IMG/VR virus record: IMGVR_UViG_3300037264_008034
Span: 1-24,535 of that record
Length of the DNA: 24,535 bases
Strand: one strand, 5' to 3'
DNA from: a virus
The position numbers were made by a program, and so were the translations under genes. Under the pieces are notes generated by a model. The model saw only the letters and a program-made list of their open reading frames with translations. It was not told the DNA's origin and did no database searches. Positions 2,390 to 24,509 of the stretch are shown here, in pieces (positions within the stretch are counted from its first letter, which is position 1; each line of letters opens with the position of its first letter).

Positions 2390-2758
2390 CTACTCCCCAC
2401 AAACGAAGTGCGAATGGAGCGAAGCAGTGTCACAAAAAATCGGAATGTTGGAGTCTTTGGCAACGACCAATTCAGCCAAGGTTCCGCTCGACGCCAATAA
2501 AGCGTCAAGGCCGCAGCAAAGAAAAACCGCATCCGATCGCCGAACCAACTCCCTGTGTCCTTTAAGGATGACATCCTCCGGCTGCTCAAGCCCGCCGGTA
2601 TTGGTATGTGGACAAATAACAGCAAATCCGCGCTCCCACAATTCCTTCGCCGCCGCAGAAGCCGCCGCAATGTTTGCCCGTCTTCCTTCCTCAGTGGATG
2701 ATCGATACGGACCCGCCACGTAAATTATCTTGCCGCGAAAAGACACCACTCTATCCAT
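2390..2758 (-). CDS. Nucleoside 2-deoxyribosyltransferase-like protein (DUF4406-type)
   Basis: The protein has the Rossmann-like layout of the nucleoside 2-deoxyribosyltransferase superfamily. It starts with a strand and loop IIYVAGPYRSS, followed by a helix ending in LWERGFAVICPHTNT, then ELVRRSDAVFLC, and finally SSGTLAELVVAK, where the Glu matches the superfamily's catalytic or sugar-binding acid. About 120 residues is the usual size for phage DUF4406 proteins. Relatives cleave or exchange N-glycosidic bonds of deoxynucleosides or deoxynucleotides, so a role in the deoxynucleotide pool is plausible, which is interesting beside a PurZ gene. The start is uncertain: TTG 2764, ATG 2758 and GTG 2749 or 2746 are all in frame, and all but the last overlap the portal end; a GGAG stands nine bases before GTG 2749. 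The gene sits oddly among head genes. Substrate and activity are inference. Confidence 0.75.
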   Translation of the reverse strand: MDRVVSFRGKIIYVAGPYRSSTEEGRRANIAAASAAAKELWERGFAVICPHTNTGGLEQPEDVILKGHRELVRRSDAVFLCCGLDALLASSGTLAELVVAKDSNIPIFCDTASLHSHFVCGE

Positions 2759-4640
2759 CTCCAAACTCGAATCGTTCCGGGATCACCGGCTCGCCGCTGT
2801 CCGCGGCGTCCTTTCCGGTTCCGAAATCGTTAGCCCTCTTCTCAGCGTCCGCTTTGCGACGTTCCTCGTCCTCATCCCGCTGCAACGCCAAACGCGACTT
2901 CTCCACATCCGGATCAATGCCGACCATCTCCCATGATGTTCGATCGGATATCAACCCCAACTCACGCAACTTGGCCACTCGGTCGGTTATCTTCTCCGGA
3001 TCCGGTGTCGCCACCGCCGGAAAAGTCATGCCAATCGGCACTTCATTGGTTGGAATCCTGTGTACCGCCGCTCCCTTGCTCACCGCATCCTCGGTGAGAC
3101 GCCGCATCTCACGAAGGATGGAGTCATCATCGTACCCGCGCCTCATACACCAACCAACCCGCGATTCCATATCACCAAACAGCTCCGGCGTCTCCTCCGG
3201 AACCTCAACCTCCTTATCAACGAATCCATCCTCAATGGCCCACAACACCACCTGAGTGAGAAAGTCCATGTTGACCGTAAGATAAAAGTCCTGATACGCC
3301 CCGATAAGCTGCGCAAACGGCGTATCAGCTATTCGAATCGACGAGTAGTTGGTCGACGACGAATCGAGCATGAGAATGTGTGGCGGTGTTCCCGTTCCCG
3401 CCGAAACACGGAGCACAATTAGATCATGATCCGGCTTCGATTCTCCGCCCCGAATTTCCGGGGAAATGAATCGGTAGGAGTAGTCCATTCCCTCATTGAG
3501 AATGACACCCGCCGGAGGCATGCGAGTATACCGAGGTGTCGCCTTTCCCGACGTTGATGATTTGAGCATCTTGCGAACCATGAACGTGCTGGCGGCATGC
3601 CGATTTCGGAGAACGCGACCACGCACAAAATCGCGCAGATATCGTAGGTCCTTCATCACCGAAAAAAGAAGCGGCAAACCGCGAACATCGCCATCGCCGT
3701 CAAGGGGATAAAATCCAGCAACGGCATCGTCCATAAACTTGATCGTCTGCTTGCCACGACTTGCGTCCGGAAGCACACGATCCGGCGCCGTTGGCGGCGC
3801 GTCTCCATACCAATGGGTCTTGTAAAATTCGTTGTGCTCCTCCATCTTCTGATCGAAGTACGTCCTTCGCAATGCGACGGGTGTCCACGGATCATCGGGG
3901 TCACGATACACCTCAGCTATCTCGTCGGAGGGCAAAAACCGAAGGCGAGCAATCGGGCTTTTGTCGCCGCCCTTGTCCTTCTTCACTCGAACAAGCAGCG
4001 GAATTAGCTCCCCTTCAAGCAGACACTTCCGAAATCCAACCTTCTGTGCCTGCGCCATATTGTTAGTGCGATGTTTCCAGAATCGCATTAAGGCACGGTT
4101 CAATTCCGAACTGACCGTGTTGATCTTCGCGCCTTTGCCAATGGCGTATGCCGTTGGAGCATTGATAGCATTCTTGGCTACACCGTCGCGCTTAAACCAC
4201 CATTTAGATGCCGCAATGGCCCGAACCCTCTGACTGTTGTTGATATCACGGATCACCAAGTCATTGCTCACCATATCAACATCCGGAGAGGAGGTCGACT
4301 CAGTGAGTCGCATCGTCCTTCCCCCGCCACCAGACGCCGGAATGGACTCCGTTAACACGCCAAGCATCGGGTTGGACTTTAGCCCGGTCCACGTTCCCGC
4401 CGCATCCATAGCATCCTCACCATCAAGCCGGTCAAATCGATCCTCACCATCGTCTCTAACATCGCCATCATAAAGTTCGGCCCTTCGACGTAGCTCTTTT
4501 ACCTCCTCCATCAACATGGCCTGCGACATCTTCAGGTCCGTTAGCTCCGCCTCCGGAACCCGAACGAGTTTGACCGGATCGACGCGTTTTTTACCTTTGG
4601 CCACAACCATCTCCCCGACCGCAGGCTTCGTTTTTGCCAT
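2751..4640 (-). CDS. Portal protein
   Basis: This 629-residue protein has the composition and layout of large phage portal proteins. A charged N-terminal region with a short coiled coil (about residues 30-55) is followed by a mixed core with RVRAIAASKWWFKRDGVAKNAI, a GELIPLLVRVKKD strand, and LRFLPSDEIAEVYRDPDD. A stem/wing-like helical section then follows (VMKDLRYLRDFVRGRVLRNRHAAS), then GVILNEGMDYSYR, HILMLDSSSTNYSSIR and FAQLIGAYQDFYL. It ends in an acidic/basic tail. These segments match the phage portal pattern in which the ring docks the terminase and passes DNA. It lies directly after the terminase nuclease gene (two bases separate stop and ATG) and upstream of the minor head gene, the conserved packaging order. 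The recognition rests on motif style and context rather than on a catalytic signature. Confidence 0.85.
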   Translation of the reverse strand: MAKTKPAVGEMVVAKGKKRVDPVKLVRVPEAELTDLKMSQAMLMEEVKELRRRAELYDGDVRDDGEDRFDRLDGEDAMDAAGTWTGLKSNPMLGVLTESIPASGGGGRTMRLTESTSSPDVDMVSNDLVIRDINNSQRVRAIAASKWWFKRDGVAKNAINAPTAYAIGKGAKINTVSSELNRALMRFWKHRTNNMAQAQKVGFRKCLLEGELIPLLVRVKKDKGGDKSPIARLRFLPSDEIAEVYRDPDDPWTPVALRRTYFDQKMEEHNEFYKTHWYGDAPPTAPDRVLPDASRGKQTIKFMDDAVAGFYPLDGDGDVRGLPLLFSVMKDLRYLRDFVRGRVLRNRHAASTFMVRKMLKSSTSGKATPRYTRMPPAGVILNEGMDYSYRFISPEIRGGESKPDHDLIVLRVSAGTGTPPHILMLDSSSTNYSSIRIADTPFAQLIGAYQDFYLTVNMDFLTQVVLWAIEDGFVDKEVEVPEETPELFGDMESRVGWCMRRGYDDDSILREMRRLTEDAVSKGAAVHRIPTNEVPIGMTFPAVATPDPEKITDRVAKLRELGLISDRTSWEMVGIDPDVEKSRLALQRDEDEERRKADAEKRANDFGTGKDAADSGEPVIPERFEFGDG

Positions 4641-8423: not shown

Positions 8424-9161
8424 TCATACGAAACGCCATCTATCGGCGCCGTGGTTGATTAAGAACTGGCCAATCCTGCTGTGATGCACCCCACCCCCGT
8501 CCGGAACAACCGCCGCCACACAACACGCCGCGAAGTCAGACAGATGAAAAGCGTCAGCTTCATTGTTATCCGTTATCCCTGTTCCTGAATTTTCACGTGC
8601 AACCTTAGTCATGGTCAATTTGTCTGCTGCCCCATTGCCTGTAGCAAACAGCTTCAACGTGGACGGCGACACAGTAAAAGCAAAAACGGGAATCTTGGTC
8701 TTCTTGTGCCATGCATACACCGCATTGCGAACCACACCACCAATCTCACCGAAGTCATACGCCCCTTCGGGCCGCCCCAAAGCGTAATTCTCAATGCACA
8801 CAACAGCGGCCAAACTCTTCACATCGGCAACCGCTCGACTTCGTGCATCCTCCAAATAATGCGTAATCCACGTGCTCACGCCATATAAAAAAGCGCCGCG
8901 GAGTTTTTTGCGCAAGGATTTGTCTACATCAGTTCCAAAACTCGCCAGAATGGGAGAGCCGCCAGAGACGAATCCGGGGCCGTCGAAGTGCATGATCGAC
9001 AAGGAACTATGCACCTTGGAGAGGTCGATTCCAACGCAGAGTAACCGAACCACCGGCTCAGTTAAATACGCAGACACAAAACCGAGGAATTGGGCGTTGC
9101 GCCCATTAAACTTGCGAGTATAGGATTCGATTCTCCGAGCGGCTGCCCCCACTCCAGTCAT
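8424..9161 (-). CDS. RuvC-like Holliday junction resolvase
   Basis: After an N-terminal extension of about 40 residues, the protein shows the RuvC/RNase H-fold pattern. The first strand is LLCVGIDLSKVHSSLSIM with catalytic D46, then AVVCIENYALG with E124, and the last acidic pair is NNEADAFHLSDFA (E201, D203). Before that pair comes VSPSTLKLFATGNGAADK, a stretch typical of phage RuvC-like resolvases. Such enzymes cut four-way junctions formed during recombination-dependent replication, or trim branched DNA before packaging. The gene overlaps the SbcC-like gene by four bases (ATGA), and with the SbcD-like gene forms a recombination set. Length (245 aa) is somewhat above bacterial RuvC (about 170), mainly from the N-terminal extension and a Cys/His-containing C-terminal tail. 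Confidence 0.82.
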   Translation of the reverse strand: MTGVGAAARRIESYTRKFNGRNAQFLGFVSAYLTEPVVRLLCVGIDLSKVHSSLSIMHFDGPGFVSGGSPILASFGTDVDKSLRKKLRGAFLYGVSTWITHYLEDARSRAVADVKSLAAVVCIENYALGRPEGAYDFGEIGGVVRNAVYAWHKKTKIPVFAFTVSPSTLKLFATGNGAADKLTMTKVARENSGTGITDNNEADAFHLSDFAACCVAAVVPDGGGVHHSRIGQFLINHGADRWRFV

Positions 9162-11329
9162 CCGTCTACCTCAACGACTACACCATCCGTAGATTTTGTT
9201 ACAATCACGGCTTTGTCTACCAACGACCCAACCACATCGCGGCCATGATGTGATACCACCAACGTTAACGAATTGCGAAGCTGCGGAACATTGAGAAGAT
9301 ACTTCAATCCGGTGAGGTCAAAGCTCCGTTCGGCTTCATCCAGCATTAAAATGTTCATGGCGACTTCGCCCAATACTACCGAACGCATGGCCACCGCAAT
9401 GGAGAACGCAACGCGGCCCCATTCTCCCTGTGAGTACGTACCCGACTCGCGCCAATGTCTGCCATCCCACACTTTGATGGAAAATCGTTGAATAACAGCG
9501 CCCGATTTGGTTGTGCCCGTAAGTGAAAACTGCACCTGCTCCACCATGCCCAATTCAGCGAGTAATCGATTAGTTTCGGCCTCAAATACCGGAAGGAACC
9601 TCTCCATCACCGCATCGCGCATTTTGGGGAACGCATCCTGCGCGGCCACGAGATGCTCCAATGGTCCTTTGGCGATGCGAATTTCGGCCTTCATTTCCTG
9701 TTCCTTCTGCAGTTGCCGCTCCAAATCACTCAAAACCCGGTTACAAACAGCCAGCCTTTCCCTGTTGCTGGCAAGGCTCTGATCAATTTCCCGACCGCGC
9801 CGTTTCTCCTCCACAATTGCCGCCTGTAACCGCAAAACGTAGTCGCAGTCCCAGTCGTTTGGATCAACGTTAAACTTCCGCTCCATTTCCGATTTTAGAT
9901 TGACGAATCGGAGCTTCAGCTCGTCTCGTTTTCTGTTTGCCTCCTGCCGTTCCTTTTCAACGTCGGCCCGCCTCTTCAGTTTCGCCGGAAGATCGTTCAA
10001 GTCAACCCATGCAACATCACGAACGGCATATAATCGGTCCACCTTCAACTTCACATCGGATAAATAGGTAGTGGCGTGTACTCGAAAATCGTCCAACTCC
10101 GATTGTGCTTGATCTCTATCCGATCGAAACGACAGCACCTCTTCCCACATTTCATCACACTTAGACCTCCAATACCCAACTGCACTTTCCGCCTGTTTCT
10201 GATCAAACGAATGAAGGATACCATCGCGAATCATAAGATAAGCACTACACTCAGGACAACAAAGCCCTCTGGCAAGCTGCGCCTCCGCCGTTCTCAAGCT
10301 AATCTTGGCGGTGTTCGATTTCTCCTCAGCGTCCTTCATTTGACCAGACAACGCGTCAAGTGCCTCTCGTTTACTGCCTCCCTCAACGTTGAGCCGAGTT
10401 GCCGATTCATCCATCTCGGCCTGCGCCACAATGACAGCGTCATTTGCTTTGTTGCACGCAAGCGTCAATTCGGATTCAGTCGGAAGCGGCGGGTCATCCG
10501 CCGCGTGTATGGGAGCCGAAGACGCATCGACCGATTCGCGCAAACCCAAATACAAGTTTACGAGTTTGTGATTTTCCTCCAATTTCGCTAAATTGACTTC
10601 GCAACCCACTTTAGACTTTCCAATCTCCTCCTGCTCCTTGCTAATCCTAACAACCTCCGAACCGGCGTTCTCCGCAACAAGGCGATCCTTCTCGGCGGTG
10701 ACGGACGCCAGCCGACCCTCCTTTTCAGCCACGGATGCTATGATCGAACCGGCCCTTGATTTCGCTTCCTTCTTACATCGGTCAAATATTTCAAGATGCA
10801 ACATACGAGAAAGGACGGCGTGTCGATCAGATGGATCAGTATCAGACGACGTCAGCGTGTCGACCGCGGTGCCGGTAAGATAGTAGAAATTGATAAAGTC
10901 ACGAAAATTGGTTATGCCAAGAAGTTCGTTGATCTTTGCCTGCAAATCGGCTACTCGATGCTCAGGCAACGAAACACCATCGATAGCCATTTGCAACTTT
11001 TGACTCTCGCCACGCTTGCGAACACGGTCTATTGTAACCACGCCCTCATCAAAAACAAGGCTGATCCATCCAGAAGCCACACTACAGTCATAGTTGATAA
11101 CGCTTTCGACGCTTTCGAGCTTGCGAGAAACTTCGCCGGTTAGCACCCAACTGATACCATCCTCCAGCGTCGTTTTGCCTGCCCCATTGCTGTCCGCGCC
11201 GTCCCGCGTGTTGTTCTCGCCAAACAAACCGTACAGCCCCGGACACGACAAAGACAGCTCTACCGCGTCACGATAGCCACCGAATCCTTCGAGACAGACA
11301 TCAATCTTGCTGAGTTTCGAGTACGTCAA
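9158..11329 (-). CDS. SbcC/Rad50-like recombination ATPase (T4 gp46-type)
   Basis: This 723-residue SMC-like ATPase pairs with the nuclease encoded just upstream. Walker A is in SNGAGKTTL near residues 47-55, preceded by GLFGENN. Long coiled-coil arms run from about residue 180 to 360 and from about 370 to 590. At the tip is a zinc hook C359-P-E-C362. Near the C-terminus, YSQGEWGRVAFSIAVAMR resembles the ABC signature region, and ILMLDEAERSF is Walker B. The complex with SbcD tethers DNA ends and processes them for recombination; in T4 the gp46/gp47 pair performs resection. It is shorter than E. coli SbcC (about 1050) and near phage-type lengths. The start is TTG at 11329, with GGGAG about ten bases upstream and a 29-base overlap with the SbcD-like gene; the predicted start gives a typical N-terminal strand. 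Confidence 0.9.
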   Translation of the reverse strand: MTYSKLSKIDVCLEGFGGYRDAVELSLSCPGLYGLFGENNTRDGADSNGAGKTTLEDGISWVLTGEVSRKLESVESVINYDCSVASGWISLVFDEGVVTIDRVRKRGESQKLQMAIDGVSLPEHRVADLQAKINELLGITNFRDFINFYYLTGTAVDTLTSSDTDPSDRHAVLSRMLHLEIFDRCKKEAKSRAGSIIASVAEKEGRLASVTAEKDRLVAENAGSEVVRISKEQEEIGKSKVGCEVNLAKLEENHKLVNLYLGLRESVDASSAPIHAADDPPLPTESELTLACNKANDAVIVAQAEMDESATRLNVEGGSKREALDALSGQMKDAEEKSNTAKISLRTAEAQLARGLCCPECSAYLMIRDGILHSFDQKQAESAVGYWRSKCDEMWEEVLSFRSDRDQAQSELDDFRVHATTYLSDVKLKVDRLYAVRDVAWVDLNDLPAKLKRRADVEKERQEANRKRDELKLRFVNLKSEMERKFNVDPNDWDCDYVLRLQAAIVEEKRRGREIDQSLASNRERLAVCNRVLSDLERQLQKEQEMKAEIRIAKGPLEHLVAAQDAFPKMRDAVMERFLPVFEAETNRLLAELGMVEQVQFSLTGTTKSGAVIQRFSIKVWDGRHWRESGTYSQGEWGRVAFSIAVAMRSVVLGEVAMNILMLDEAERSFDLTGLKYLLNVPQLRNSLTLVVSHHGRDVVGSLVDKAVIVTKSTDGVVVEVDG

Positions 11330-12428
11330 GCCAAACTTTCTCCCTGTCCTTGTCTCCGGCGGAGAATTCGCGTATTAGCTCCTTCGGGTCCGATACAAAC
11401 CCGGAGGACGAGGCGATTGTCGGACGAATTTCGTCCGTCGTCTCAGTTTCTACCTTAACAAACTGAGCCTGTTTCTCGTACAGATGAGCAAGAAGACCCT
11501 TAACATCAAAAACCGCCAACTCCGATCTTGGTCCTCGCACCACGACCTTAATTATAGCATTTGAGACTAAATCGTCTGGAAGATGATCCTTCGTTCCCAT
11601 CGTTATACACAAAACCGGATCGTCGTCACTGTTCACCCACTCAACCTCGTAGTCGGGCCACTCAAACAAACGAAGGACCGCAAACCCGTGCGGGTACTCC
11701 GACTCAGCAAAACTTATCGCCGCCGCCGATCCAACATACCCATGCCATTTTCCGTCCTCCTGCTTCCATTGCCGACGATGAAAATCGCCCAACATGGCCA
11801 CACGATAGGGGTCAAGCACATTCGGATCAACACCCAAATCCGAAATCATGGACATGCTTTGCCACCAACCAGCCAAAGGAAAATGGCTAAACAAAACAGT
11901 GTGATCCTTCAACACCAAATCGTCCGCCAACGATATTCCGCTCGTTGCCAGTGCCAGTCGCTCACCCACGTCGGTGCTGAATGGCACAAACAACAAATCC
12001 CAACCACCTTTACATCCAACCCGCCACGATTCCGGCCCAGTAACGAGTACATATCCAAAATCAGAAAGTGCCGCTATTAAACTCTCCGAAGCCATTGGCA
12101 CCACATTGCCAACCCGCGGGTGGTTGCCCGCCACATGGACAACACGAACGGGAGAAACGTCGCCATTTGAACAGGAGGTTAATACGCGAGTAAACGCAAA
12201 CCGGATCGACTCATCCACACGCGGCGAATCGAACATATCCCCCGCAAGAACCAAGTACCGCTGATGGGCCGCAAAGCCGGAAGCGTGATCCACCGCTTTC
12301 TGTAAGATTTCAAGTTTCTTTTTTGTGCGTGTGTTCTCCACGCCGTACCCTGTGCCCATGTGGTCGGTCGACTTCAAATGCAAATCGGCCAGAACGACAA
12401 TCTCAACAAACGGCACCCGCTCACTCAT
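11301..12428 (-). CDS. SbcD/Mre11-like nuclease (T4 gp47-type)
   Basis: This is a calcineurin-like metallophosphoesterase of 375 residues. Metal-binding motifs appear in the proper order: D15-x-H17 (VLADLHL), G63-D64-x-x-D67 (LAGDMFD), G101-N102-H103, H182 (LFSHFPL), and G214-D215-F-H217, a phage and bacterial variant of GHxH. The C-terminal third is the accessory and coiled-coil-binding part that should contact the SbcC-like ATPase. With that partner it forms a DNA end-processing nuclease used in phage recombination and repair. The ATG overlaps the end of the upstream gene by eight bases, and its own stop lies inside the SbcC-like gene, indicating coupled translation in the proper stoichiometric pair order (SbcD then SbcC). 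Confidence 0.9.
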   Translation of the reverse strand: MSERVPFVEIVVLADLHLKSTDHMGTGYGVENTRTKKKLEILQKAVDHASGFAAHQRYLVLAGDMFDSPRVDESIRFAFTRVLTSCSNGDVSPVRVVHVAGNHPRVGNVVPMASESLIAALSDFGYVLVTGPESWRVGCKGGWDLLFVPFSTDVGERLALATSGISLADDLVLKDHTVLFSHFPLAGWWQSMSMISDLGVDPNVLDPYRVAMLGDFHRRQWKQEDGKWHGYVGSAAAISFAESEYPHGFAVLRLFEWPDYEVEWVNSDDDPVLCITMGTKDHLPDDLVSNAIIKVVVRGPRSELAVFDVKGLLAHLYEKQAQFVKVETETTDEIRPTIASSSGFVSDPKELIREFSAGDKDREKVWLDVLETQQD

Positions 12429-12774: not shown

Positions 12775-13116
12775 CTACTGTTCACCCCCGCAGTTTGCTC
12801 CCACCTTCCCGACACCGGACAAATGGACCTTACATTCATCCAGCCAAGAAATCCATTTCGGATCACGTTGCTTCAACAGACCCCCCACAACCGCCATGCC
12901 GTATGTCAGCGTCGTGTGATGCCGGTTCATAAAACGGCCAATTTGAACCAGCGTCCACCCCTCATAGACATACAACAGGAACGCCAAAAGATAGCGAGCA
13001 TCCACGAGCAGACGCTGTCGCCCCCTCGACAACAGCCAATTTCCTTCAATACCAGTCACGTCGGAGACGACATCCAGATACCGCTGCCAACATTCGGATT
13101 CGGACTCACTCATCAT
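12775..13116 (-). CDS. Stand-alone DnaA domain IV-like DNA-binding protein
   Basis: The 113-residue protein matches the C-terminal DNA-binding domain of DnaA without the AAA+ ATPase. The basic loop GRQRLLVDARYLLAFLLYVY is followed by WTLVQIGRFMNRHHTTLTYGM, the counterpart of the DnaA signature (IGR.FG.RDHTTVLHA). The usual Asp of DHTT is His here (HHTT, residues 66-69); in bacterial DnaA this position contacts DNA. A Trp-containing helix and a Cys/Gly-rich tail follow. Such a protein could bind DnaA-box-like sites as an origin-recognition or regulatory factor. ATG 13116 has no clear ribosome binding site, and the upstream 58-residue gene ends at a TGA exactly 12 sense codons upstream in the same frame, so coupling or read-through is possible. 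Function is inferred from the fold. Confidence 0.75.
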   Translation of the reverse strand: MMSESESECWQRYLDVVSDVTGIEGNWLLSRGRQRLLVDARYLLAFLLYVYEGWTLVQIGRFMNRHHTTLTYGMAVVGGLLKQRDPKWISWLDECKVHLSGVGKVGANCGGEQ

Positions 13117-18408: not shown

Positions 18409-19293
18409 TTACGTACCGACCGCTGCATCGTCCGGTTCCTTGATAACAGGACCATCAGAAATTGAACCGGCTTGTTTTGCTTCTACAATCATTCGTTCCT
18501 CAAGAGCACGGTCGTCATCGTCGCGCAAATCGACATACTCAAATTGTGCGCCAGCTTTGGTAAGGCGTCTATGAGAAATGTCGATGGCCGCGCTGTTGAG
18601 GTCGATCCCAATAAAACGGCGCCCCATTTGATGGGCCGCCAGCAGTGTACTTCCCGCCCCAACAAACGGATCAAGTACCAAATCGCCCGTCTTTGTGTGG
18701 TTGGAGATAAAAAACGCCGGTAACTCAACCGGTTTCTCTGATTGATATTCAATCTTCGATGAATGAACACGGCGAATGTGTGAAATCACATCCATTACCG
18801 CCTTCTCTTTCGGGGCAAACCAGCGCAGCTTTCCATTGTTTGATGCAACAAACACACGCTCAAAAGTCCTCCGGTATTTCCACCCGGCCCCGTTGCCCTT
18901 GCTCCAAACTACCGGATGTTCAAACACAAATATTCGAGACAAAGCAAGAGCCACAAGCGCAAACCCAACCCTCCCCGGCTCACCGCACGCCGCGCTACAC
19001 ACACACACAACCCCATGCTTAGCCATAATCGGCTTCATCACCAACAGCGATGACTCAACAAGTGACTGCAATTGTCGGTCCTCCGCCCCAAAATCTCCGG
19101 GCACATGCCCGCAGGTTTCAATAGACCGAACCGGCTCCACGCCGACCCGTGTGTGCCTGTTTCGATCCTCCCTGTTGGTTGAAATCCCGTACGGCGGGTC
19201 AGCAAACACAAAGTCGACCGACCCGCCCGGCATCTTCGCAAGCACCTTACGACAGTCCCCATGGATGAGATAATTAAGGCTTAGGTCAGGCAT
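18409..19293 (-). CDS. DNA methyltransferase, beta-type amino-MTase (copy 2, DPPY)
   Basis: This 294-residue protein has the permuted (beta) arrangement of DNA amino-methyltransferases: motif IV D32-PPYG comes first, and the SAM-binding motif I DPFVGAGST (from D208) plus GIDLN (D231) is near the C-terminus. The DPPY form is normal for N6-adenine enzymes, although N4-cytosine activity cannot be excluded by eye. No restriction endonuclease is nearby, so it is probably a solitary methylase protecting phage DNA. It is a clear paralogue of the enzyme at 20813-21646: both have motif IV at residue 32 and share the GW(K/R)YRR.FE..(Y/F)VAS and KPVEL stretches. A charged tail of about 40 residues is extra. 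Start overlaps the HTH gene by eight bases. Confidence 0.9.
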   Translation of the reverse strand: MPDLSLNYLIHGDCRKVLAKMPGGSVDFVFADPPYGISTNREDRNRHTRVGVEPVRSIETCGHVPGDFGAEDRQLQSLVESSLLVMKPIMAKHGVVCVCSAACGEPGRVGFALVALALSRIFVFEHPVVWSKGNGAGWKYRRTFERVFVASNNGKLRWFAPKEKAVMDVISHIRRVHSSKIEYQSEKPVELPAFFISNHTKTGDLVLDPFVGAGSTLLAAHQMGRRFIGIDLNSAAIDISHRRLTKAGAQFEYVDLRDDDDRALEERMIVEAKQAGSISDGPVIKEPDDAAVGT

Positions 19294-20133: not shown

Positions 20134-20742
20134 TTACGTTGCTGCGTTGGGATCGGCCACCAAGCCGAATTTCGGAGAGGTCACCAAACTCGTAGCCAGC
20201 CATCGGATCGTCCCATCTACCCACGGTCGAAGGAGCCGAAGCTCTCGACATACTGTCGCCTTGCCGCGCCGCGGGTCAAGCCGACTGCCTATGGCCGCAA
20301 GGTCGTACCCCTCCGTTCGATACTCTATGATCAGCGCCTTCGTCGACCCAACCCCAAAGTCCCTCTGTGCCTGACGAACAACGGCGTTAATCAATTCTGG
20401 GTATCCATGATGATAGGCCACACTGCTAAATCGGCCAGCGTTTGACTCTCGGATCGAATCGAGCACGCCAACAAGTCGGCGCCGACGAGCCAGCTCATTC
20501 AGTATGGCGTTCCCGGCAACGAACGCTATCAAAAACGTAGACGGGGCCGCCCCATCAATGCGACACTTGGGCACCGCCCGCCACGCCGCCTCAATGCCAA
20601 TGGACATAAGCCCATCAAGATCATAGTTGCTGCCGAATCGTGTTCTCACCATCCCGCGAACGGAACGCACGATCCACTCCGACACATCGCGCACAGCAGC
20701 ATCGTCTCCCCCAGCCGCATTGTTCACCGTTTGTAAGTCCAC
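20134..20742 (-). CDS. Sigma factor-like protein, 202 aa
   Basis: Residues about 39-89 resemble sigma-70 region 2: NYDLDGLMSIGIEAAWRAV, then DGAAPSTFLIAFVAGNAILNELARRR, comparable to the DL..G..GL..A...F....G..F.T.A...IR.AI..E pattern that binds core RNA polymerase and the -10 element. Residues about 137-172 (ALIIEYRTEGYDLAAIGSRL, then TVCRELRLLR) look like a region 4 helix-turn-helix. A phage-encoded sigma could direct host polymerase to late or middle promoters; a degenerate anti-sigma or structural homologue is also possible. GTG 20742 was chosen because AAAGGGAGG sits five bases upstream; the frame is open 16 codons further but those residues do not match. It is the first gene after a 70-base gap that could hold a promoter, though none is clear. 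Confidence 0.6.
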   Translation of the reverse strand: MDLQTVNNAAGGDDAAVRDVSEWIVRSVRGMVRTRFGSNYDLDGLMSIGIEAAWRAVPKCRIDGAAPSTFLIAFVAGNAILNELARRRRLVGVLDSIRESNAGRFSSVAYHHGYPELINAVVRQAQRDFGVGSTKALIIEYRTEGYDLAAIGSRLDPRRGKATVCRELRLLRPWVDGTIRWLATSLVTSPKFGLVADPNAAT

Positions 20743-20747
20743 GGTTT

Positions 20748-20756
20748 CCTCCCTTT
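20748..20756 (-). promoter_or_regulatory. Ribosome binding site that sets the sigma-like start
   Basis: AAAGGGAGG on the minus strand, five bases upstream of GTG 20742. It argues for this start rather than the longer open frame. Confidence 0.65.
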
Positions 20757-20812
20757 GTGTGTACCACGTAAAATTGAACGCAACCGCCACATCTCTTACA
20801 CAAAAAACGGTG

Positions 20813-21646
20813 TCAAGTGGCTCGTGTCAAGTCCTCCTTTTGATCACCAGAAAGATCAATAAACTCGTACTTAGCCCCAGCCTCATCCAATCTCCGTCTG
20901 GAGATTTCAATAGCTTTTGGATTTATATCAATCCCAATCCATCTCCGTTTGAGATTGTGCGCCGCAATCAACGTAGAGCCAGACCCGCAGAACGGGTCGA
21001 GGACATTATGAGATTCGTCGGTATGAAGCCTCATAAAGTGTTCACAAAGTTCGACCGGTTTCTGCGCCGGGTATAAAATGTGGCCGCTGTAGACGGGCTT
21101 GATGTGCGTGATGACATCCGGAATGTTGTTGGTCGTGTTGTACCACCGCAGAGCCTTGTTGGCCGACGCCACGTAAATAAACTCAAAACACCGCCTGTAT
21201 CGCCACCCAACCCCCAGCGCCCGCTTGTGCCAAACAACTACGTTAGCTAACCGGAATGCGCCATGAAGATCAAAGGCCCACTGCGCAAATGCTACCGGTC
21301 TCATGCCGCCGCTGCTCGGACAACACATACACACAACGGCATCCGCCTTGACGAGCGGCTTCAATGCCACAATCGCACCCCCAACCAGATCATCCGAGAA
21401 CCCGCCAGACCCGTCAAAGTCCCCAAGCACATTGCCGCCAGTCCCATTAGCGCGAACCGACGCGCCGGTCACACGCCCAGCCAATCGCGCATTTCGCTCA
21501 CGGACATGCGCTTTTCTGTCCTCACGGTCAACCACCACACCAAACGGGGGATCGGTGAACACAAAGTCCACAGACGACTTCGGCAAATCATCAAACGCCC
21601 TCCGAAAGTCCCCGTGAATCAGCCAGTTTCTGGTTAGGTCCACCAT
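20813..21646 (-). CDS. DNA methyltransferase, beta-type amino-MTase (copy 1, DPPF)
   Basis: A 277-residue amino-methyltransferase of beta arrangement: motif IV T-D32-PPFG near the N-terminus, and motif I LDPFCGSGST (from D217) with GIDIN (D240) near the C-terminus. DPPF is a permitted variant of the adenine-type DPPY. The middle part (GVGWRYRRCFEFIYVAS, LRWYNTTNNIPDVITHIKP, KPVELCEHF) matches the second methyltransferase closely, so the two arose by duplication. The target-recognition region (about residues 45-130) differs, which would suit different target sites. Its ATG overlaps the purZ-like stop (TGATG), so the two are translationally coupled. If the genome contains 2-aminoadenine, its true substrate base is an open question. 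Confidence 0.9.
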   Translation of the reverse strand: MVDLTRNWLIHGDFRRAFDDLPKSSVDFVFTDPPFGVVVDREDRKAHVRERNARLAGRVTGASVRANGTGGNVLGDFDGSGGFSDDLVGGAIVALKPLVKADAVVCMCCPSSGGMRPVAFAQWAFDLHGAFRLANVVVWHKRALGVGWRYRRCFEFIYVASANKALRWYNTTNNIPDVITHIKPVYSGHILYPAQKPVELCEHFMRLHTDESHNVLDPFCGSGSTLIAAHNLKRRWIGIDINPKAIEISRRRLDEAGAKYEFIDLSGDQKEDLTRAT

Positions 21647-22710
21647 CAGTCCTCGTCAAATTCCGATCTTGCTATCATCGTGTTAGGACCCAGTCCAATC
21701 CAATCAATGCGCTGACCGATGCCATCCTCAACCTGCAGGATAAACCGAATCGTTTTTTGAGTGGGCCTTCCGGTTCGGCGGGCCTCATAATCAACCTGAT
21801 CCACGTGGTTGAGACAGATTAAAGATGGCTTGTTTGACGCTATTGCCGAACGGACAAGCCCCGCATCAAATCGAGCCACGCGCCGGACGGTTTTGGTGAC
21901 GGACGTAAGCTCCATCAGTGAATCCGGGCTTCCCGATTCCTCCGTCACCGTTTGCCAATCAATCTCGTTCGGAAGTGGACCAGAATTCCCGCCAACTCGG
22001 ATCGGAAAGGCCCTAATAACCATGATGACATCCTTAACATCAAACGGCGACAGGCCAGCCTCGGACAAGAACGAAGCCACTCCGGTATCTCGCGATGTGC
22101 AGAACGGGTAACAGTCACAATGAAGCACCGACAGCCCCCATCCCTGCGTTCCCTCAAGCAAAACATAAGCGCCGCCCCTATCGAGCCGATCACGCAAGTA
22201 TGGCACGGTCGGTTTAACGTAGTGCTTAAGCAACGGCTCGTCCTTGGCGAATCTCAACGATCCATCGCGACGCAAACGGGCCATCGTCACGGCGCCGGTC
22301 CCAGAGTTGGTTGAACCTATGGCCGGACGAAGACCGCCATTCAATTCCTGATCAATATGCCCCTTGGTCATGATGGCCGCATTTGGGTCAATCAACAGTC
22401 GACCCGAATCAAGTGGACAGTACTCCAATTCCCGCTTCAAGATTTCGAGATCGATGATCGCCCCCGCACCAAGCACACACACACTGCGAGGAAGCAGGGC
22501 CGGAGTTGGAAGCTGTTTGAATATATACGATTTGCCGTCCGATCCGATCACGGTATGGCCTGCGTTAGGTCCGCCCGTCCTTACACAAATCACTTCGTTG
22601 TTATTGCTCGCCCCGTGCTTGGCGGACAACAGTTGTTTCGCCCAAAAATGCGCGACTTTCCCTTTCGACTCACTGCCAAATTGTCCTCCGAATATGACCC
22701 CGACCGGCAT
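21646..22710 (-). CDS. purZ: PurZ-like adenylosuccinate synthetase homologue (2-aminoadenine pathway)
   Basis: This 354-residue protein has the adenylosuccinate synthetase fold with the phage PurZ signature. The phosphate loop is GGQFGSESKGK (residues 8-18): Ser13 replaces the Asp13 of PurA (GDEGKG), the base catalyst that PurA needs to act on IMP. Next come PNAGHTV (PurA has HNAGHT), then GAGAIID, STNSGTGA, VLLEGTQGWGLSVLH, TSRDTGV, IRVGGNSGPLP and ICLNHVDQVD. The length fits PurZ and the short archaeal-like enzymes rather than E. coli PurA (about 430). PurZ joins dGMP and aspartate to give 2-amino-2'-deoxyadenylosuccinate, the step to dZMP, so that adenine is replaced by 2-aminoadenine (Z) in phage DNA. 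The start has AAAGGAGG six bases upstream, implying strong translation; the stop overlaps methyltransferase copy 1. Confidence 0.88.
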   Translation of the reverse strand: MPVGVIFGGQFGSESKGKVAHFWAKQLLSAKHGASNNNEVICVRTGGPNAGHTVIGSDGKSYIFKQLPTPALLPRSVCVLGAGAIIDLEILKRELEYCPLDSGRLLIDPNAAIMTKGHIDQELNGGLRPAIGSTNSGTGAVTMARLRRDGSLRFAKDEPLLKHYVKPTVPYLRDRLDRGGAYVLLEGTQGWGLSVLHCDCYPFCTSRDTGVASFLSEAGLSPFDVKDVIMVIRAFPIRVGGNSGPLPNEIDWQTVTEESGSPDSLMELTSVTKTVRRVARFDAGLVRSAIASNKPSLICLNHVDQVDYEARRTGRPTQKTIRFILQVEDGIGQRIDWIGLGPNTMIARSEFDED

Positions 22711-22711
22711 T

Positions 22712-23461
22712 TTAATCCTCCTTTGTTATTTGACGCATGTGTTGTTTGACTGCCGCACTCATCTTGGCGCGAGCCTCCGATGAGTGTTTGTGTCCAAAAC
22801 CGTAAGTGTTGCCAGTATTAATCGCCCTAAGTTTGGCTATGTGCTCTGGAGACATGCTTCGGTTTGCTGCACTAAGATTGGCCCTGTGCTCTGGACGCAG
22901 TTTCCTGCCGGTTAAGGTCGCGCTGATTTTAGCCCGTATCTCCAACGAAGGATTGCGCCCCAAAGCGTGCTTGTTTCCCATTCCTGCTGCGCTGATCTTA
23001 GCTCGTGTCTCTGGAGAAAGCCCGCGGCCCAAACTATGCTTGTTCCCCATCCCCGCCACGCTCAACTTGGCTCGCGTCTCCGGTGAGGGACAACACCCCA
23101 AAGCGTACTTGTTTCCTTTGCTCGCCGCACCAATCTTCGCCCTCGTCTCATCGATGTGTTTGTGGCCCAATGTGCCATCTCCGCCATCGGTAAGGTTAGT
23201 TAAGTCAAACCCAAAACTCCGCATCCTCGCTATCCAATATCGCTCCCGATCTTGCCAACCATCACCAACCCCGGACTCAACGACAGTGCACACAGGACGA
23301 AGACCGATATTTAAGAGAGAACGAATCCAACTGTACACATAAGCAACTTTATTATTGCATCGAGCGTGACTGAGATGCTGAATCGCCCGCCTCTTTGCTC
23401 CTAAATGTGTGACGCCCACATATCGGACCAAAGCGGTGCGCGGGTCCATTAAGGCGTACAC
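22712..23461 (-). CDS. GIY-YIG homing endonuclease with NUMOD3-type repeats
   Basis: The N-terminal domain is a GIY-YIG nuclease: the first strand VYAL stands for GIY, RYVGVT (13-18) for YIG, followed by an Arg/His helix, the catalytic Glu at 73 (DRERYWIARM), and LTNLTDGGDG. From residue 99 there are about seven degenerate repeats of the kind known as NUMOD3 (SPETRAKISAAGMGNKHALG and similar), which bind DNA along the minor groove in homing endonucleases. This is a free-standing mobile gene; it lies between the helicase and the purZ-like gene with no sign of an intron. The start is uncertain: GTG 23461 has AAGG nine bases upstream, but the frame continues upstream (KERRWEVYAL) without a good start codon. 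It should cut a related phage's sequence at this locus. Confidence 0.88.
   Translation of the reverse strand: MYALMDPRTALVRYVGVTHLGAKRRAIQHLSHARCNNKVAYVYSWIRSLLNIGLRPVCTVVESGVGDGWQDRERYWIARMRSFGFDLTNLTDGGDGTLGHKHIDETRAKIGAASKGNKYALGCCPSPETRAKLSVAGMGNKHSLGRGLSPETRAKISAAGMGNKHALGRNPSLEIRAKISATLTGRKLRPEHRANLSAANRSMSPEHIAKLRAINTGNTYGFGHKHSSEARAKMSAAVKQHMRQITKED
22717..22724 (-). promoter_or_regulatory. Strong ribosome binding site of the purZ-like gene
   Basis: AAAGGAGG on the minus strand, six bases before ATG 22710. It lies across the 3' end of the GIY-YIG gene, so purZ can be translated independently of that gene. Confidence 0.75.
22742..23164 (-). repeat. NUMOD3-type tandem repeats within the homing endonuclease gene
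   Basis: About seven copies of a degenerate unit of roughly 15-24 residues with the core SPE(T/H)RAK(I/L)SAA and often GNKHALG. Neighbouring copies look alike at the DNA level, for example the two GCTGG/GGGAATGGG-containing copies near 22980 and 23050, so the array could recombine. Confidence 0.75.
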
Positions 23462-23495: not shown

Positions 23496-24509
23496 CTAAT
23501 TTTCGCCCCTATCGTCAGTTAATTCGTAAACTCTTCTTGTGGAACCTTCCCATCCTAATACTACAAATGCCCCGGCCCCGGCCTCGCCCTCTCGCTGCTT
23601 TCCAATCGTGATGTTCATTGTGTTGTCCGGCAGGTCTCTGTCATACTTTCCGGGACGATGCGGGGAGAGCATCAGGTCCGCGGCCTCCTCGTAAGATCGC
23701 GACTCCCCAACCGAATCGATCGACCCCTGTCCGTACTCCTCGGCGTTCTTTTTACTGCTCGATCCCTGCGCCCGCCGCTGCTGCGCCACGCAGCACACAT
23801 GCACATTCTCAGATTCGGCCAGCCCGGACATGGTCTGCAGCACCTTTTTTATCACTGCCGATTTCTCAGCCGAATTAACGCACGACGAAACTTCAACAAG
23901 CAGGTCGAACCGATCGATAAAAACGACGTTAACCGGCCCCTGCTGCTTGGACTTCCTCAGCCAATTTAAAACATCGTGGGCCGACATCATCTTGTCGTAT
24001 GCTGAATACAAATGCCACACCTTGTCAATTTCACGAATGGCTCGCTCGATGGCGGCATCCCGTTCCGCATCCTCCCCACGAAGCTCGTACCACGAACTCA
24101 CAACATCGTAATCATATCCGGTCTTAATGGACAACAAACGATTCATCTCGGATCGGACGGGGGTCTCGGTTGACAGGACCAGTACGCCCATACCGGCAAC
24201 ACACATGTTGACAGCCATGTTGCTGCGAAGTGCCGACTTCCCCGATGATGGGCGCCCAAACAAAACCGACACTGTGTTAGGAATGAACCCCTCAGCCAAT
24301 TTGCGGTCAAGCGACGGAAAACCGGACCCAATCTTCTTCATCGGCCCCAAACCCGAATGAACTGCGGCAAATGCCCCCTTTCCCACAAACCGCGCCGCGT
24401 CCTTGCCTATATTGAACGGTTCACCGGTCTCCAAGTACAATGAATAGAGATCGTCTATCGACGCCCGCTCATACGCCATCTCGATCAGTATATTAGACTT
24501 TTTTATCAC
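23496..24509 (-). CDS. DnaB-like replicative helicase (RecA-fold domain only)
   Basis: The 337-residue protein shows the DnaB-family helicase core. Walker A is FGRPSSGKS (Lys91), followed by VLVLSTETP with the catalytic Glu115; Walker B is VVFIDRFDLL (D199); then CCVAQQRR; the family's C-terminal arginine motif is KQREGEAGAG (304-313), comparable to KNRNGPTG of DnaB. The N-terminal primase-binding domain of bacterial DnaB is missing; only about 55 residues precede the core. It should unwind DNA at the phage fork as a hexamer. The start is a GTG with only a weak AGG upstream, and an ATG at residue 11 (24479) is possible. The remaining 26 bases to the right edge hold no recognisable gene start, and the gene order upstream is unknown. 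Confidence 0.88.
   Translation of the reverse strand: MIKKSNILIEMAYERASIDDLYSLYLETGEPFNIGKDAARFVGKGAFAAVHSGLGPMKKIGSGFPSLDRKLAEGFIPNTVSVLFGRPSSGKSALRSNMAVNMCVAGMGVLVLSTETPVRSEMNRLLSIKTGYDYDVVSSWYELRGEDAERDAAIERAIREIDKVWHLYSAYDKMMSAHDVLNWLRKSKQQGPVNVVFIDRFDLLVEVSSCVNSAEKSAVIKKVLQTMSGLAESENVHVCCVAQQRRAQGSSSKKNAEEYGQGSIDSVGESRSYEEAADLMLSPHRPGKYDRDLPDNTMNITIGKQREGEAGAGAFVVLGWEGSTRRVYELTDDRGEN

Follow-up and report, generated by a model that had tools for sequence, protein, structure and literature searches.

Two clades of phage enzymes, PurZ and PurZ0, have been described. PurZ (phages phiVC8, S-2L, and PMBT28) uses ATP, and PurZ0 (Gordonia phages Archimedes and Ghobes and Arthrobacter phage Wayne; PDB 7vf6) uses GTP. 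PurZ phages carry DatZ/MazZ plus DpoZ-2 or PrimPol. Phages with a characterized PurZ or PurZ0 have all been treated as Z-DNA phages (PMC12884076), and a purZ-like gene has so far been read as a marker of such phages. The active-site residues of S-2L PurZ served as our reference, and the ATP site of the reference PurZ enzymes carries Asn or Gln (PMC8342488). A preliminary description of an IMG/VR virus record, a fragment of 24,535 bases (here called the window), predicted from its PurZ-like gene a phage genome in which 2-aminoadenine (Z) replaces adenine (A). We report here that this gene encodes a real PurZ-type enzyme that is not PurA and that its Ser13 clade is largely cellular; by itself, the purZ-like gene is no proof that the phage genome has Z in place of A.

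The purZ-like gene and its surroundings

The purZ-like open reading frame is intact and begins with an ATG at position 22710 (Table 1). The coordinates in the preliminary description were correct, and the strand, which it left unstated, is minus. Its length of 354 amino acids (aa) was also given correctly there but is not specific to PurZ, since archaeal PurA is ~340 aa long. The protein belongs to PF00709, shares its fold with PurA, and has homology far beyond chance to PHROG 1211 (labeled 2-aminooxy adenylosuccinate synthetase; E = 4e-63) and to the sequence of PurZ0 7vf6 (E = 7e-43). Its AlphaFold model has a mean pLDDT of 94, and in a Foldseek search with this model (E = 1e-31) the top match was PurZ0 7vf6, followed by archaeal PurA 5k7x and then by phiVC8 PurZ. 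The overlap of the purZ-like stop codon with the start of the downstream methyltransferase gene may couple translation of the two. That methyltransferase and a second one in the window are paralogous (45% identity), and the pair flanks the purZ-like region.

Table 1. Features of the 24,535-base window
Feature	Coordinates	Strand	Basis
Nucleoside deoxyribosyltransferase-family protein (PHROG 355)	2390..2764	-	Profile match
Gene pair, SbcC-like and SbcD-like	9158..12428	-	
113-aa protein	12775..13116	-	Match to DnaA C-terminal DNA-binding domain
Uracil-DNA glycosylase/3'-5' exonuclease/family A DNA polymerase fusion (UDG-PolA), 827 aa	15659..18142	-	
Second N6/N4-type DNA methyltransferase (PF01555), DPPY motif	18409..19293	-	
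Sigma-70 region 2-like protein, possible phage sigma factor	20134..20790	-	
N6/N4-type DNA methyltransferase (PF01555), DPPF motif, directly downstream of purZ-like gene	20813..21646	-	
TGATG, purZ-like stop overlapping methyltransferase start	21644..21648	-	
Candidate succino-aminodeoxyadenylate synthetase, PurZ-like with Ser13, 354 aa	21646..22710	-	Homology, residues, tree, predicted fold
Homing-endonuclease-like gene (NUMOD3), located between the dnaB-like and purZ-like genes	22712..23461	-	Profile match
Shine-Dalgarno AAGGAGG, 6 nt 5' of purZ-like ATG	22717..22723	-	
DnaB-type replicative helicase (PF03796)	23496..24509	-	Profile match

Active-site residues

As previously noted, the protein reads GSESKG, with Ser at position 13. 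The PNAGHT motif is likewise present but only weakly bears out the contrast drawn from it between PurA and PurZ: where E. coli PurA reads HNAGHT, the reference PurZ and PurZ0 proteins read PNAGHT or ANAGHT, and NSGHT stands in most close relatives of the window protein. A residue-by-residue comparison with S-2L PurZ showed conservation of the dGMP pocket (G12, S13, N49, A50, G132, S133, T134, Q189, R238, and V239). Ser13, Ser133, and Thr269 (Asp, Thr, and Gly in PurA) are common to all reference PurZ and PurZ0 proteins and to all viral members sampled; S133 and T269 set the whole Ser13 group apart from PurA, and T269 aligns with a PurZ-specific Thr (S-2L T273). Moreover, V239, which adjoins the deoxyribose in S-2L PurZ, is conserved, and a PIRVxGNSG insertion loop lies near the deoxyribose site, as in PurZ0.

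The nucleotide triphosphate site differs from that of PurZ. The window protein has Asp at position 304, a residue shared with nearly all of its cellular and viral relatives and with both PurZ0 and PurA, whereas reference PurZ has Asn or Gln there, so that the Gln/Asn of the ATP base site (S-2L Q308, phiVC8 N297) is not matched. At position 301 the window protein has Asn, like most cellular relatives and PurZ; PurZ0 carries Thr or Ser at this site, and PurA carries Thr. From this D304/N301 pattern, GTP is the predicted energy donor. GTP use has been reported for PurZ0 in a paper whose results text gives the ATP/GTP preferences of the two groups opposite to its own introduction (PMC12884076).

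Among characterized enzymes, PurZ0 is the best structural and sequence match, sharing Ser13, S133, T269, D304, and the NSG insertion loop with the window protein, although the two are only 35 to 39% identical and no DutZ or DpoZ-1 gene lies near the window gene. PurZ shares Ser13, S133, T269, and the Asn at 301 but is more distant (28 to 32% identity). Archaeal PurA (Pyrococcus horikoshii, 5k7x) resembles the window protein in length, fold, and D304; unlike the window protein, the archaeal enzyme has Asp13, Thr133, and Gly269 and falls outside the Ser13 group.

Placement relative to PurA, PurZ, and PurZ0

A tree of these families had been proposed as a check in the preliminary description. We built it from reference PurA, PurZ, and PurZ0 sequences, 46 other phage sequences, and the window protein. 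All Ser13 proteins formed one group, split from archaeal and bacterial PurA at 100/100. In every tree the window protein lay outside the PurZ and PurZ0 clades; its own supported branch in this one also held IMG/VR contigs as long as 312 kb. The reference PurZ0 sequences formed a separate branch (100/99), and a joint clade of the window protein with PurZ0 was rejected (AU P = 0.002). A joint clade with PurZ, whose branch is long, was not formally rejected (P = 0.15). One match from a 735-kb uncultured phage (LR756503) proved to be an ordinary Asp13 PurA-like protein.

Profile scores gave a similar picture. Against the NCBIfam PurZ model NF038379 (cutoff, 300 bits), the window protein scored 210 bits, compared with 346 to 408 for phiVC8, S-2L, PMBT28, Wayne, and Ghobes (346 to 367 for PurZ0) and 127 for E. 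coli PurA. The archaeal PurA model NF003295 scored it at 229 bits, slightly above the PurZ model, and this score, together with the shared fold and PF00709 membership, is what speaks for an ordinary PurA acting on IMP. We consider that reading very improbable and reject it: Asp13 is lost, T133 and G269 are changed, the tree split is fully supported, and the protein fell below the cutoff of every PurA model. The gene is best read as encoding a PurZ-type enzyme of a third clade, distinct both from ATP-using PurZ and from PurZ0.

Cellular relatives and their operon

Scanning of genome contigs yielded 289 relatives, of which the best 80 were kept. Among these 80, the closest are 49 to 53% identical over the full length and are mostly bacterial and archaeal genes, with sources that include Nitrosospira, Nitrosomonas, Nostoc, Kordiimonas, and Geobacter. 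Many of the cellular relatives lie on long contigs, some of >2 Mb, and some lie on rhizobial plasmids. In the tree, the window protein nests with these cellular Ser/Gly13 proteins and not with known PurZ or PurZ0; branches within this clade are modestly supported, and viral sequences are scattered through it. A set of 11 sequences that includes the window protein and 8 cellular proteins has support of 98/95, and a larger cellular set groups with the window protein at SH-aLRT values of 95 to 98. The bacterial and archaeal NSGH clade is its nearest neighbor in the tree, and the two share an N-H-x-D motif at positions 301 to 304. They differ in that the cellular clade has NSGHT and a conserved operon, whereas the window gene has PNAGHT and lacks the operon partners. 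Matches on Rhizobium leguminosarum plasmids (H171 to H179), where PurA-like, folE, and purB genes are clustered, form a separate group at ~32% identity.

Of the 77 readable cellular sequences, 68 have Ser and 9 have Gly at position 13. The Gly13 (GGEGKG) members (L131, L134, L135, L136, L139, L140, L149, L188, and L189) come mostly from Desulfuromonadales-type and archaeal genomes. Otherwise, the cellular members also carry S13, S133, and T269, with a few Ser or Ala residues at 269, and nearly all of them have Ser in place of Ala at position 50. The variation at positions 13 and 50, and the fact that we found no assayed member of the clade, would fit an enzyme with a different acceptor, such as GMP or another purine nucleotide; retention of V239, the insertion loop, and T269 argues against this, and we regard it as quite unlikely.

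The cellular genes sit in a conserved operon (for example, L128:384-5089 among genome contigs L120 to L199), and several of the operons in these contigs adjoin restriction-modification genes. Among the best 80 of the 289 loci, a dCTP-deaminase-like gene adjoins the purZ-like gene at 76, and an RNase_H_2-domain protein of about 530 to 930 aa, the long form of which also has a C-terminal P-loop kinase-like domain, adjoins it at 72. A deoxynucleoside kinase profile was matched at 32 loci (at a few of them by the kinase domain of the long RNase_H_2 protein itself), a ~250-aa uncharacterized protein was present at 18, and a lyase-family match was present at 4, the Lokiarchaeota one being PurB. By inspection, the dCTP-deaminase/dUTPase-like protein of Nitrosomonas halophila has a likely membrane helix. 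Two viral contigs (L059:9231-10820 and L086:5515-7137) encode an N-terminal P-loop kinase domain fused to the PurZ-like protein.

No description of this operon was found in the open-license literature. Ten large operon neighbors were chosen by eye, not randomly, from cultured or well-assembled genomes, and nine of these matched PADLOC models (type I or IIG restriction-modification, TIR-Argonaute-associated, and GajB/UvrD-type); PADLOC made no call for the PurZ-like proteins themselves. These neighbors point the cellular operon towards defense, as a lead and not as proof. A tentative reading, which we hold to be less likely than not, is that the window gene is a viral branch of a cellular system of PurZ type that has so far gone undescribed. 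The Ser/Gly13 enzymes of that system would be dGMP-succinate synthetases, and the operon might supply the cell with dZ nucleotides, perhaps as a defense.

Another reading treats the phage protein as a nucleotide-pool enzyme that uses dGMP with a small output of dZ nucleotide, a counterdefense or defense element taken from the bacterial operon, with Z functionless in virion DNA. It would account for a gene that nests among or beside cellular genes of this operon, often near restriction-modification genes in the examples examined, and for the finding that neither the window as a whole nor the flanks of its purZ-like gene contain the RNase_H_2/kinase, dCTP-deaminase-like, or deoxynucleoside kinase partners. 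The phage copy is thereby isolated from those partners, however, and its own operon mates are DNA modification and replication genes; we consider this reading unlikely.

Polymerase and Z-companion genes

In a polymerase tree, the UDG-PolA of the window fell outside both DpoZ-1 and DpoZ-2, so that DpoZ was rejected. It grouped with polymerases (SH-aLRT, 95) whose phages gave no match in a PurZ search that was run without a positive control alongside. No close homologs were found in viral contigs. At the helix-O "steric gate," classical PolA invariably carries Tyr, and DpoZ-1 and DpoZ-2 carry Phe (PMC8599892); the window polymerase has Asn. Among PurZ-associated polymerases, this position is Asn in one other (L031) and Tyr in many, including that of the PurZ0 phage Galactica, which makes Phe an imperfect DpoZ marker. 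S-2L shows that DpoZ is not indispensable for a Z-genome phage. Replicases of phages with Ser13 PurZ-like proteins include families other than DpoZ or PrimPol: PolB-family matches were found in four such phages (G003 and G016, and as fragments in G004 and G006) and PolIII-alpha matches in G013 and G015. A 13-kb viral contig encodes a divergent PurZ-like protein that reads GSCGKG (L001:7183-8307); RecA-like, DnaB-like, and ribonucleotide-reductase-like open reading frames were recognized on it by eye.

The companion profiles covered DatZ (PF12917), MazG (PF03819), dUTPase (PF00692), and DUF5664 (PF18909). The 24.5-kb window matched none of the four. Across 30 virus records, DatZ-like PF12917 was found in none, dUTPase in 13 (mostly outside the window's clade), DUF5664 in 4, and MazG in 1, a record placed near that clade by score. 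Within the clade, DatZ and DUF5664 were absent throughout, contigs of 105 to 312 kb included, and dUTPase was limited to two records, that of L033 and a distant, split match in the 312-kb contig. In the PHROG 355 protein of the window, Y15 and E98 align with Y6 and E103 of DmtZ, and an Asp stands where DmtZ has Asn77, by inspection.

These results bear on whether Z takes the place of all A, as in phiVC8, S-2L, and Wayne. In favor, the protein has the key residues, the treatment of phages with characterized enzymes as Z-DNA phages gives a precedent, and missing companion genes could sit outside the fragment. On the other side stand the third-clade position with mostly cellular nearest kin, the non-DpoZ polymerase, the scarcity of companion genes in and near the clade, and the adjoining methyltransferases, which look like N6-adenine enzymes and would fit poorly with a genome wholly without A. 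We therefore think full replacement somewhat unlikely. A PurZ-type gene cannot by itself diagnose a Z-DNA virus, because the closest kin of this one are for the most part cellular genes in a conserved operon. The preliminary description was right in seeing a Ser13 enzyme of the PurZ branch, separate from PurA and, judging by residues, tree, and Foldseek, probably dGMP using; its prediction of a Z genome was not supported, given the subcutoff PurZ score, the position outside the reference clades, and the kin, polymerase, and companion results above. A Z genome may still be plausibly inferred, but on weaker grounds than that description supposed.

Proposed reaction and fate of the product

The substrate, energy donor, and incorporation into DNA of the product are what we infer from sequence. 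We hypothesize that the phage enzyme would ligate dGMP and Asp, probably with GTP, to form N6-succino-2-amino-dAMP (dSMP). Host adenylosuccinate lyase (PurB) would then convert dSMP to dZMP, and host kinases would convert dZMP to dZTP; no phage copies of either were seen in the window. UDG-PolA or a host polymerase might place dZTP opposite T. The phage gene itself speaks, through homology, only to the ligation step. With no dATP-depleting partner visible and a polymerase that is not DpoZ, the most likely outcome would be Z at part or all of the A positions in the virion.

We assign this reading, a third-clade PurZ-type ligase with Z in part or all of virion A positions, a probability of somewhat under 60%. 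In its favor are S13/S133/T269, the insertion loop, D304, the top match to 7vf6, the 100/100 split from PurA, and a strong ribosome-binding site before an intact frame, as well as the viral kinase fusions and the deoxynucleoside kinase, dCTP-deaminase-like, and few PurB neighbors of the cellular genes. Against it are our failure to find an assayed member of the clade, the NF038379 score (210 versus 300 bits), the lack of DpoZ, the companions not found in the window (itself a 24.5-kb fragment), and the adenine-type methyltransferases.

Significance

The Ser13 branch reaches far beyond the phage clades of PurZ and PurZ0, extending to phage contigs of jumbo size, to phages with family B and PolIII-alpha polymerase matches, and to bacterial and archaeal genomes with a conserved operon. 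The newer and wider point is that the clade is largely cellular, in an operon for which the open-license literature yielded no description. If the tentative cellular reading is true, Z metabolism would belong to cells as well as to viruses. Should the cellular enzymes prove to make dZ nucleotides, such metabolism would be older than, or broader than, phages, and the purpose of the operon would be directly testable.
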